DNA from: Acaricomes phytoseiuli DSM 14247
GTDB lineage: Bacteria; Actinomycetota; Actinomycetes; Actinomycetales; Micrococcaceae
Direction: 5' to 3'
Assembly: GCF_000376245.1 (NCBI RefSeq)
Contig: NZ_AQXM01000064.1
Location: 62,001 to 126,000 of the forward strand
DNA length: 64,000 bases
In this document: positions 39,771 through 43,252 of the stretch, in pieces
Position numbering within the stretch: position 1 is the stretch's first letter
How the letters are laid out: each line of letters starts with the position of its first letter
The notes under the pieces: generated by a model
Database searches by the model: none
The model's input: the letters and a program-made list of their open reading frames with translations, nothing else
What the model was told of the DNA's origin: nothing
Made by a program: the position numbers and the translations under genes

Positions 39771-40421
39771 CTAGAGTTCTTGCTTCATCATCCGCACGAA
39801 AAGCTCATGCACCCGGGGCTCCGCCGCTACACCATCGGCTCCGGTGGCTTCCGGGTGGAACGAGGTCGCTAGGAGGTTCCCCGAGCGCACCGCAACCGCG
39901 CGGTTCGCTCCTTCAATCCTAACCTCGGCCAGGGTTTCCACCCCGGAACCCACTCGTTCGGCCCAGGGAGCCCGGATGAAAACCGCGTGCACAGGGCGCT
40001 GCGGCGCGCTGATCCCGGTGAACCGCACCGCAGTCTCGAAGGACTCGCGCTGCCGCCCGAAGGCATTGCGCCGCACCGCGATATCCAGACCGCCCAGCGT
40101 GCGCTGCGGCGCGCCCGAACCGTCAAGCGCCGGGTCCAGAACTTTATCCGCCAACAGGATCATGCCCGCGCAGGAGCCGTACACAGCCTTGCCCGAGCGG
40201 ATGAAGTCCCGCAGCGGCTGCTCCAGCTCGAACGCCCGGATCAGTCGATCCATAGCAGTTGATTCACCGCCCGGTATGGTCAGCCCGGCCAGGCCATCTA
40301 GCTCGCTCGCCCGACGCACCGGGCGGGCCATCACCCCGCAGGCCCGCAACACCTGGAGATGCTCCTGGGTATCGCCCTGCAAGGCCAGTACCCCGGCGGT
40401 CAGAGTCGTGGTGGAGATCAT
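39771..40421 (-). CDS. pdxT: PLP synthase glutaminase subunit PdxT
   Basis: Class I glutaminase that passes ammonia to PdxS for pyridoxal 5'-phosphate synthesis. The 216-residue protein has [12 protein letters not shown], the oxyanion segment [11 protein letters not shown], the nucleophile Cys84 in [12 protein letters not shown], and the catalytic His-Glu in TSFHPE. Its partner pdxS, normally next door, is about 8 kb away here with an accessory block between. I find no copy of the pdxS operator before pdxT, so the two genes must now be transcribed separately. Confidence 0.95.
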
Positions 40422-40567: not shown

Positions 40568-43252
40568 ATGTGCGGAATCGCCGGGTACTACGGCTATGAA
40601 GCGGACGAGGCGATGCTCAGCACGATGAGCGAGACCATCGCTCATCGCGGCCCGGACGGTGAAGGCTACTTCACGGACGGCCTGGTGGGCTTCGCGCACC
40701 GCCGCCTGGCTTTTATCGACCTGGAGCACGGCCCGCAGCCCATGATCAGCCAAGACGGCAAGACCGTGCTGATCTATAACGGCGAGGTCTACAACTACCT
40801 TGACCTGCGCACCGAGCTGGAGGCTCTGGGCCGCACTTTCGTCACGAATTCCGATACCGAAGTGGTACTCCAGGCCTATGAGCAGTGGGGCACCGAGGCT
40901 TTCGACCGTTTCAACGGCATGTTCGGCCTGGCGATCTACGATGCCGAGCAGCAGCGGCTGGTCCTGGCTCGCGATCACTTCGGCATTAAGCCGTTGTACT
41001 TCGCTCCGCTGTCCGCCGAGCAGACCGGCACGGGCAAACCAGGCTTGCTCTTCGGCTGCGAGATCAAACCGATCCTGGCGGCCGAGAAGATTGATAAGAA
41101 GGTCAACGAACGGATCCTCTACCGGTACTTGCAGTTCCGAATCCACGATGAAGAGGCCGCGACGTTCTTCGAGGGCATCGATAAGCTCATGCCCGGCCAG
41201 ATGCTGGTCCTGGATACAACGACCGGCGATTACGCACTCAGCATGTTCACCCGTTTTCCGGAGGAGCTGAGGGAGCTCTCCGCCATCGACACCCCGTACT
41301 CCCGCGAAATCATCGAAGAGTACCGGCAGCGCTTCACCGAAGGCGTACGGCTGCGCCTGCAGTCCGAGGTGCCCATCGGCAGCGCGCTCTCCGGCGGTCT
41401 GGATTCTTCCGCGGTGGTCGTCACCATCAATAAGCTCATGGCGGAGCATGCCGCGGCGACGGACTCCCTCGGCAGCAGCCAGCAGACCTTCACCGCGATC
41501 TTCCCGAACTCCATCAACGATGAAGAGAAGTACGCCGACGCGGTTCTTGAGATCTGCAAGGGCAATGTCACGAGCCATAAGATCCTACCGACGGCCGAAG
41601 AGTTCGCCGAGGATCTAGAAGACTTCGTGCGGACTCAGGAAGAGCCGATCATCTCCTCCGGCCCGTACGCCCAGTACCGGGTGATGCAGGAGGCCTCCAA
41701 ACACGTTAAGGCGCTGCTGGATGGCCAGGGCGCCGATGAGATGATGGCCGGTTACATCCCCTATTACTTCGCGTACCTGAGGCAGCTGAAGAAGAACGGG
41801 CAGTTCGGCAAACTGGCTAAAGAACTGCTCTCCAGTACGGATATCCTGTTCCGTCTGGTCCGCTTCCGGCTCTTCGGAATGCTGACGTTCCGTAAGGAGA
41901 CCGGGATCACCGAGCTACTGGATCCGCAGTTCCGGCGCGAGCATAAAACCGAGCGCTTCAGCACCATCCCGGACAACCTCAAGCTGCGGCTTATCGACGA
42001 TATCTTCCATAAGTCGCTGCCCTCAGTGCTGCGTTACGAGGATAAGAACACGATGCGCTTCTCCTTGGAAGGGCGCGTTCCGTTCCTGGACAAGGACGTG
42101 GTGAAGTACCTTTTCAGCCTCTCCGATGAGTCGATCATCAAGGGCGGCTGGAACAAGCGGATCCTGCGTGACGCCACCCGAGGCCTGCTGCCGCCGATGA
42201 TCTCCAACCGGCGGAACAAGATCGGCTTCACCACGCCTGAGGCCGAATGGTTCCTGAAGATGCAGGAGAAGATCTACGAGATCTTCATGTCCGCGGCCTT
42301 CGAAGGCCGGAAGTACTGGAACAAAGACGAAGTGATCGCGGCCTTCGAACGGTACACCTCGGGCAATCACAGCGGCTCCACGATGGTGTTCTGGCGATTG
42401 CTGAACACCGAGCTGTGGTTGCGGGAATTCATCGACGCCCCGCAGGACACCGAGGCAGAGCTTCCCGTAAAAAGCGATTACGAGCCCAATGCGGGTAAGG
42501 ATCTGGATATTTCGGTGCCGGAGGACGGCGGGCGCAGTTACCGACGCTACCCGATCCGCACCGAGGTCTTCTACCGGCAGACCGATCTGGATCCGGCGAT
42601 CCTCAGCTACGTGCAGCGCTTCGCAGATGGTTTGCCGGGCGCCGGCGCCGAGCATCGGCAGGCTACCGCGGATAAGCCCTGGTACCTTTTCGTCTCCGAG
42701 AAGATCGTCGCGATGACCCAGGGCCGCTCGATTCCGGTCTGGGACATCAAGGTCTCCCCTGCGGCCCGGCTGCTCAGCCGGTTCGTGATGAAGAACCCGG
42801 GTGGCATCGGCCTGGCCAGCCCGTGGTCGATGCAGCTGGCCATCGACGAGGTCGGCCTGCCCCGGATCCTCTGGGCGTCTTTACGTTCCGTGATCGGTAA
42901 ACTCCAAGGCAAGAACGGGGTCTTCTACGAGGTCGTAGGACATGACATCAACGCCATCGACGGTGCCGCAGCGTACCAGGTGGGCACCTCAGTTCATTCG
43001 GTGAAGTACGCGCCGAAGGATCCGGACGGGGTGGCCCGCAGGCTCAGCGCCAAGGTCCGCGCCGCCCTGCCGGCTGAGCTCGCCGCGAACTTCGGCGGAA
43101 CCGCGATCATGGACGCCAATGACCTCGGCGTCGTCGCCCTCGGCCACGATACCGACCTAGAAAAAGCAGCATTGGAAGGCATCTTCCGGGATAACCCGCA
43201 GGGTCAGAGCACCGAGACCACGCCGATGTCGGTGGTCTTCCGGCAGAGCTGA
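40568..43252 (+). CDS. asnB: Fusion: glutamine-hydrolysing asparagine synthetase plus CofE-like gamma-glutamyl ligase domain
   Basis: An uninterrupted 894-residue frame with GAGGG before the ATG. Residues 1-about 200 are a class II glutaminase (Cys2 in MCGIAGYYG; IAHRGPDGEG; YNGEVYNYLDLR). About 230-625 form the synthetase domain with the ATP loop SGGLDSS (275-281), LDGQGADEMMAGY and SLEGRVPFLDKD. Family members normally end near here. After a linker, residues about 660-885 match the COG1478 family, annotated F420-0:gamma-glutamyl ligase: YLFVSEKIVAMTQGR (706-720), GIGLASPWSMQLAIDEVG (746-763) and MDANDLGVVALGHD (848-861). The first half would make amides from glutamine nitrogen; the second belongs to NTP-using ligases that add gamma-glutamyl groups. 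The real substrate is unknown. A strong terminator follows, then ggt. Confidence 0.88.
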   Translation: MCGIAGYYGYEADEAMLSTMSETIAHRGPDGEGYFTDGLVGFAHRRLAFIDLEHGPQPMISQDGKTVLIYNGEVYNYLDLRTELEALGRTFVTNSDTEVVLQAYEQWGTEAFDRFNGMFGLAIYDAEQQRLVLARDHFGIKPLYFAPLSAEQTGTGKPGLLFGCEIKPILAAEKIDKKVNERILYRYLQFRIHDEEAATFFEGIDKLMPGQMLVLDTTTGDYALSMFTRFPEELRELSAIDTPYSREIIEEYRQRFTEGVRLRLQSEVPIGSALSGGLDSSAVVVTINKLMAEHAAATDSLGSSQQTFTAIFPNSINDEEKYADAVLEICKGNVTSHKILPTAEEFAEDLEDFVRTQEEPIISSGPYAQYRVMQEASKHVKALLDGQGADEMMAGYIPYYFAYLRQLKKNGQFGKLAKELLSSTDILFRLVRFRLFGMLTFRKETGITELLDPQFRREHKTERFSTIPDNLKLRLIDDIFHKSLPSVLRYEDKNTMRFSLEGRVPFLDKDVVKYLFSLSDESIIKGGWNKRILRDATRGLLPPMISNRRNKIGFTTPEAEWFLKMQEKIYEIFMSAAFEGRKYWNKDEVIAAFERYTSGNHSGSTMVFWRLLNTELWLREFIDAPQDTEAELPVKSDYEPNAGKDLDISVPEDGGRSYRRYPIRTEVFYRQTDLDPAILSYVQRFADGLPGAGAEHRQATADKPWYLFVSEKIVAMTQGRSIPVWDIKVSPAARLLSRFVMKNPGGIGLASPWSMQLAIDEVGLPRILWASLRSVIGKLQGKNGVFYEVVGHDINAIDGAAAYQVGTSVHSVKYAPKDPDGVARRLSAKVRAALPAELAANFGGTAIMDANDLGVVALGHDTDLEKAALEGIFRDNPQGQSTETTPMSVVFRQS

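Follow-up and report, generated by a model that had tools for sequence, protein, structure and literature searches.

MurT-GatD uses glutamine nitrogen to amidate the alpha-carboxyl group of D-glutamate (D-Glu) in lipid-linked precursors. This reaction is essential in S. aureus, and the genes were reported solely from bacteria whose walls are amidated (PMC3266927). MurT is thought to phosphorylate the D-Glu alpha-carboxyl (PMC6085368), and can use free ammonia when a catalytically dead GatD is present (PMC3266927). AsnB homologues are established stem-peptide amidases for meso-diaminopimelic acid (mDAP; PMC10484409, PMC8554201), the LtsA-type peptidoglycan AsnB proteins being recognized by missing Asp-binding residues and an extra loop in the substrate region (PMC8554201). 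In the CofE reaction, GTP and two metal ions serve to activate a carboxylate before the amide is formed (PMC10861534). Here we analysed a 64,000-nucleotide stretch of Acaricomes phytoseiuli DSM 14247 (contig NZ_AQXM01000064.1, positions 62,001 to 126,000; hereafter the window), in which one gene joins an asparagine synthetase (AsnB) to a CofE-like domain. Because this fusion lies where relatives carry murT-gatD, it probably represents a second, previously undescribed route to the same amidation of a cell-wall building block.

A complete AsnB joined to a CofE-like domain

The gene encodes 894 residues, and the motifs named in the original prediction sit at the residues claimed there. Its parts are as follows.

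40568..43252, + strand: AsnB-CofE-like fusion gene, 894 amino acids (whole-protein model with predicted local distance difference test, pLDDT, 88.1 and predicted template modelling score, pTM, 0.84)
40568..41077, + strand: glutaminase (glutamine amidotransferase, GATase) part, residues 1-170 with Cys2 (PF13537 at 44-170)
41321..42424, + strand: AsnB synthetase part, residues 252-619 (PF00733, E 1e-61)
41390..41410, + strand: PP-loop SGGLDSS, residues 275-281 (sequence inspection)
42518..43249, + strand: CofE-like domain, about residues 651-894 (PF01996 sub-threshold; fold match to CofE, Z 14.0)
42959..42961, + strand: D798, aligned to D109 of A. fulgidus CofE (invariant; profile alignment)
43112..43114, + strand: D849, aligned to D150 of A. 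fulgidus CofE (invariant; profile alignment)

Residues 1-619 form a complete AsnB, with GATase_7 (PF13537) and Asn_synthase (PF00733) assigned by Pfam, Cys2 and SGGLDSS intact, and a score of 397.9 bits against TIGR01536 (asparagine synthase; cut-off 267.1 bits). Reading frame, motifs, Pfam and TIGR01536 scores thus agree with the predicted fusion and its complete AsnB half, and intact homologues retain MCGI. The model for the amidotransferase of N-acetylglutaminylglutamine amide (NAGGN), TIGR03104, gave 300.8 bits on the fusion, below its cut-off of 570.1. In the NAGGN system, an AsnB-type amidotransferase works with a peptide ligase of the ATP-grasp type; the fusion likewise has an AsnB-type enzyme, whereas its partner is CofE-like. 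The fusion also resembles LtsA and the AsnB-type mDAP amidotransferases in being AsnB-type and in its likely wall role, but has an extra CofE-like domain, which the accessible portions of PMC8554201 and PMC10484409 do not mention for those enzymes.

Structural modelling identifies the C-terminal tail as a CofE-fold domain of the PF01996 superfamily. The AlphaFold2 model of the domain (32 sequences, pLDDT 88.3) matched A. fulgidus CofE in Foldseek (E 4.4e-7) and in VIA-align (2phn; Z 14.0, root-mean-square deviation 3.6, 187 aligned); no other fold in the VIA-align search came near this Z, the next unrelated entries reaching Z 3.9. The tail had been predicted to belong to PF01996/COG1478, which fits the fold model and the profile matches of relatives, whereas the window protein itself stays under the Pfam cut-off of 25 bits (19.3 bits for the whole protein, 22.8 for the tail alone). 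Of 32 aligned relatives, 30 matched PF01996 at E <= 0.1, with a best value of 8.1e-9, and another full-length fusion, L183, scored 40.8 bits, over the cut-off. A PDB sequence search with the domain returned no relevant match. The fold and the SK.V..GR, ID and DxN motifs align with CofE and the FbiB N-terminal domain; unlike these proteins, the window protein misses about 28 residues after D150 and is fused to AsnB. D798 and D849 are invariant across 32 aligned sequences (alignments A3 and A4), and a profile alignment (probability 63%, E 7e-5) pairs them with D109 and D150 of A. fulgidus CofE, which we take to be metal ligands.

Further AsnB-COG1478 fusions, for which the original prediction suggested a search, were found at full length in several lineages. 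Full-length homologues with 66-80% identity are present in 12 of the 58 other genomes compared, and a Brachybacterium genome from another family (G046, locus L096) has a match at 36% identity over residues 115-890. Scanning named genomes with the tail gave 132 relatives, of which 80 loci were kept; at 79 of these, at least 500 in-frame residues precede the domain, the remaining one (L094) being truncated at a contig end. Since the fusion recurs full length in Micrococcales, Coriobacteriia and Patescibacteria, an assembly join near 42450-42540, one of the concerns raised with the prediction, is excluded.

The fusion and MurT-GatD

A MurT-GatD neighbour of an unfused copy of the domain (see below) led us to search for MurT by its MurT_C domain, PF08353. 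No PF08353 match was found in the A. phytoseiuli genome, and the fusion is itself not a member of MurT-GatD. Among 58 chosen genomes, MurT was detected in none of the 13 fusion-bearing Micrococcaceae and in 11 of the 23 Micrococcaceae without the fusion. In 245 Micrococcaceae genomes, the CofE-like domain was present in 54 (in two of them, G736 and G812, as a tail with hardly any AsnB) and MurT in 115, and no genome had both, compared to an expectation of 25.3 that takes no account of kinship between genomes. This mutual exclusion extends into the genus of the window, where five genomes (G000, G001, G002, G003, G005) have the fusion and no MurT, and two (G004, G006) have MurT and no fusion.

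The two systems also share a chromosomal slot, as seen when the region from relA to pdxT was compared across 56 additional genomes, 54 of them from Micrococcaceae and two serving as outgroups; with the window this made 57 stretches, a number of which are short. On its left the slot, which in relatives takes murT-gatD, is bounded by the following gene.

39771..40421, - strand: pdxT (named by eye)

Of 22 fusion genomes, the window included, 19 have the fusion adjacent to pdxT in divergent orientation, and murT-gatD occupies the same place in the same orientation in 10 of 21 MurT genomes. Genes for M3-peptidase, pdxS, HIT or thrS lie beyond the slot in both kinds where the stretch extends that far, at some loci after extra intervening genes. 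Exceptions among the fusion genomes were G033 (contig end), G736 and G812 (gene elsewhere) and G737 (3.2 kb between). In the MurT genome G014 the stretch is cut, and G004 and G006 have an empty slot with MurT at another location. As a separate observation, the relA match contains one in-frame TGA each in the genus g15 genomes G020, G736 and G812 and in G041.

A glutaminase and a putative carboxylate-activating ligase in the MurT-GatD slot, never found together with MurT in the 245 family genomes, are best read as a convergent replacement. By this analogy we lean, with modest confidence, towards the fusion being a peptidoglycan-precursor amidating enzyme, a functional analogue of MurT-GatD built from unrelated parts: MurT-GatD combines a class I GATase with a Mur-ligase fold, whereas the fusion combines AsnB with a CofE fold, and the searches made revealed no homology between them. 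The N-terminal glutaminase of AsnB would release ammonia from glutamine, and a stem-peptide carboxylate would be activated and then amidated, the best candidate being the alpha-carboxyl of the D-Glu residue in position 2. Comparison with CofE (GTP, acyl phosphate) and with MurT (carboxyl phosphorylation) makes the CofE-like domain the probable site of activation, and this carboxylate or a different one may be activated by the AsnB synthetase half; we infer substrate, nucleotide and the division of labour between the halves from these comparisons. An enzyme that activates and amidates, as originally predicted, is plausible. Such a function would explain how some MurT-less bacteria could amidate their walls, extend the CofE fold to peptidoglycan, correct routine asparagine-synthase labels, and assign a testable function to a gene kept by some genome-reduced Patescibacteria.

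Several observations weigh against this assignment. In 6 of the 21 MurT genomes murT lies elsewhere, and in 4 of 21 gatD-murT adjoins yebC in the other orientation. Neither the domain nor MurT was found in 76 of the 245 family genomes, so that the modification may be absent there or made otherwise. Outside the family, G391 combines a fusion of a second group with MurT, the two are adjacent in G459, and G066 shows a weak MurT match (27.2 bits). A five-gene tree implies 7 changes for the fusion and 8 for MurT, and six independent pairs gave no same-way change and on average 3.8 opposite ones (p 0.125); since six pairs are unable to reach significance, the exclusion corrected for kinship is consistent but small. 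As both AsnB active sites are intact in the window protein, one activating domain would be redundant. Finally, on the Roizmanbacteria contig L100 (genome G062), the fusion precedes an asnS gene scoring above its cut-off and several gat-like genes (names assigned by eye), an arrangement that fits asparagine supply.

Constraint on the CofE-like half

Sequence constraint is concentrated in the CofE-like tail, and the AsnB half decays in several lineages that keep this tail. In an alignment of 31 homologues, which includes the row of L100 without its start (contig end), invariant columns number 23 within residues 1-623, compared to 58 within residues 641-894. The strict PP-loop pattern is absent in 18 of 79 loci, some of which differ by a single residue. 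The AsnB half is degraded in Terrabacter, in Humibacillus and its kin, in Microlunatus and at three of four Brachybacterium loci, and in the genus g15 (G736, G812) tblastn recovers just residues 559-620 of it with the tail present. At degraded actinobacterial loci, identity to the window protein is 28-42% for the AsnB half, against 46-55% for the tail. In line with this, the ratio of nonsynonymous to synonymous substitution rates (dN/dS) of the AsnB half exceeded the value for the tail by a factor of 1.05 to 1.57 in five intact pairs, and of 2.2 to 3.9 in seven decayed pairs; for the Brachybacterium loci L096 and L098, dN/dS was 1.05 in the AsnB half versus 0.27 in the tail. Lineages that keep a dead AsnB half may have a parallel in MurT, which can work with free ammonia beside a dead GatD.

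The persistence of the domain where the AsnB half has decayed or is nearly gone, and in unfused copies, would also suit a wall enzyme of other specificity. Here a stem-peptide carboxylate would be coupled to an amino acid (glycine or asparagine, for instance) by the CofE-like domain, with AsnB amidating the product or another group. Such an enzyme would exclude MurT because both use the same carboxylate, the evidence from slot and neighbours applies to it just as to an analogue of MurT-GatD, and CofE itself couples an amino acid, not ammonia, to its activated carboxylate (PMC10861534). However, the recurrent partner of the domain is a glutamine amidotransferase (79 of 80 loci, and at least 4 of 63 neighbours of unfused copies), which points to ammonia in the intact members, and wall chemotype data for fusion-bearing species were not found in the accessible open-licence literature. 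We regard this alternative as unlikely.

A broader proposal, which we put forward tentatively and with more doubt than belief, would make the CofE-like domain a new class of peptidoglycan ligase in Actinomycetota and Patescibacteria that activates the alpha-carboxylate of lipid-linked D-Glu. With a live AsnB the product would be D-isoglutamine, with a dead AsnB, as in Terrabacter, Microlunatus, Brachybacterium and other lineages, the domain would instead attach an amino acid, for instance glycine, and MurT-GatD would have been displaced in place. If so, one domain would explain two wall chemotypes. In the accessible portions of the open-licence literature on MurT in Arthrobacter and Micrococcus and on wall chemotypes, including PMC6113628, nothing was recognized on this protein.

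Neighbours of unfused copies

Copies of the CofE-like domain unfused to AsnB also exist. Wall or division genes made up at least 11 of the 63 genes flanking 32 such copies, compared to at least 1 among 62 controls drawn from the same genomes (p 0.004), counts that are lower bounds for targets and controls alike, with extra scrutiny given to the targets only (PDB searches, earlier Pfam scans and local BLAST for one MurJ). These neighbours were MraZ (twice), LysM-M23, YkuD-S11, VanW-PG_binding, Wzy, LysM-CHAP, DivIVA, a MurT-GatD fusion and MurJ (twice). Counted by locus, at least 10 of 32 target loci had such a neighbour versus at least 1 of 31 controls (p 0.006), one of the 32 control windows (L207) being without a gene. 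The list of wall categories was fixed before the control and full target scans and after some target neighbours were known. The sole control match, a protein with transglycosylase and transpeptidase domains, was counted as one protein; counting it as two gave p 0.016 by gene and 0.022 by locus. Dropping L122, close kin of L121, left at least 9 of 31 loci versus at least 1 of 31 (p 0.012). At loci of high G+C content genes were called by codon-position bias, and some may be false. AsnB accounted for at least 4 of the 63 flanking genes.

Individual loci showed further arrangements. A single-chain MurT-GatD fusion (L171:3323-5545, +) lies immediately upstream of a distant CofE-like gene. At L177:5684-7093 (-) and L180:5162-6535 (+), the CofE-like domain stands behind a tetratricopeptide-repeat domain, the repeats being Pfam-supported for L177 only, and murJ is nearby in both.

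Asparagine, F420, folate and ggt

The score above the TIGR01536 cut-off and the asnS gene after the Roizmanbacteria fusion would be expected if the protein were an asparagine synthetase whose accessory domain has a regulatory or some other role, and if its relation to MurT reflected lineage history at a variable locus; indeed, the slot at times holds other genes (ggt in the window, 3.2 kb in G737). Against this, no asparaginyl-tRNA synthetase above cut-off was found in the A. phytoseiuli genome or in 19 other Micrococcaceae, and constraint falls on the CofE-like half, not on the AsnB half. Among the 36 genomes searched, two had this synthetase above cut-off (G062, the Roizmanbacteria genome, and G181), with strong matches below it in G060, G223 and G691. 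A residue pattern provides a hint in the same direction: ten intact fusions read GQG[AS]DE, compared to GEGSDE in one AsnB of the set, and the Glu of GEGSDE is needed to adenylate aspartate. This hint is weak because GQG is also what five of the six remaining AsnB-like proteins show. We consider the synthetase with an accessory domain quite unlikely. Supply of asparagine for an asparaginyl-tRNA synthetase was rejected on the result for the 20 Micrococcaceae, L100 speaking the opposite way; the fusion is probably not an asparagine supply enzyme.

The relation to the CofE fold would equally allow a gamma-glutamyl or folate/F420-like conjugating enzyme, possibly linked to ggt as first proposed. 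A precedent is the chlamydial COG1478 protein CT611 (FolC2), a CofE relative with a function outside F420 that replaces E. coli FolC (PMC1971073). However, the fusion differs from CT611 in carrying AsnB. A substitute for FolC was rejected because the genome has a FolC above cut-off. The fusion gene is the single PF01996 match in its own genome, where a genome-wide search for other F420 genes was not made, and four hosts of fusion loci (G064, G065, G066, G067) each carry a strong, separate F420-type gene, the fusion itself scoring in that search in G064 only (E 0.001). Given the lone PF01996 gene and the four genomes with both gene types, the fusion is unlikely to be an F420 ligase, a reading that was rejected in agreement with the doubt expressed in the original prediction that F420 is the substrate. 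The residues of CofE without counterpart, which judging from lengths lie between D150 and the last strand, also speak against a conjugating enzyme of this kind. In a tblastn search of the 57 relA-pdxT stretches, some of them short, the ggt of the window was matched in the window alone, so that neither a partnership with ggt nor a gamma-glutamyl product later cut by it was upheld. Altogether, a conjugating enzyme appears highly improbable. The fusion, its CofE fold and the doubt about F420 thus stand from the first interpretation, the ggt-cut product does not, and the genomic context points instead to amidation of a peptidoglycan precursor.

Distribution and descent

Hosts of the fusion include members of Micrococcaceae, Intrasporangiaceae, Dermacoccaceae, Microlunatus, Brachybacterium, Coriobacteriia and Patescibacteria, the latter represented by Saccharibacteria, Nomurabacteria and Roizmanbacteria. 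The CofE-like domain was present in 23 of 376 Actinomycetota genomes and in 19 of 286 genomes from the phylum of a Saccharibacteria genome, with AsnB-sized fusions in 2 of these 19. No match was obtained by tblastn of the plasmid collection. In the accessible portions of the open-licence literature on this fusion or on CofE in Patescibacteria, no paper was recognized as treating this protein.

In a tree of 67 domains, 33 fused proteins formed one clade (support 100/99), whose sister (84/90) is a Patescibacteria copy with AsnB and CofE-like genes overlapping by 4 bases. A single clade of all fused proteins, including the group of G391, G403 and G670, was not rejected by the approximately unbiased (AU) test (p 0.24). 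A single clade of all AsnB-linked copies, fused or adjacent, was rejected (AU p 3.7e-5), indicating that AsnB and the CofE-like domain were joined or parted more than once.

Several single loci are recorded here. Two contigs labelled as phage (MT835656.1 and MT838774.1, Bacteriophage sp. from human faeces) encode the domain at 45.8% and 34.7% identity, and are possibly bacterial DNA. Locus L028, labelled Sporosarcina, has a Micrococcaceae gene order and 78% tail identity, and is probably mislabelled or contaminated. On a Coriobacteriales contig (L081:4194-8720), an AsnB-like frame of 625 amino acids lies immediately upstream of the fusion. At L133:6576-7988 (+), the CofE-like domain is fused to adenylate kinase (PF00406) within a Patescibacteria ribosomal-protein operon, between the SecY and Peptidase_M24 genes. 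In two actinobacterial genomes (L167:4363-6416, L169:5926-7880), the end of a sigma-70 factor gene runs into an unfused CofE-like gene, so that the two overlap. In a distant CofE-like subgroup (L172, L173, L174, L175), the adjoining gene encodes a class-III aminotransferase at three loci and an Orn/Lys/Arg decarboxylase at one.

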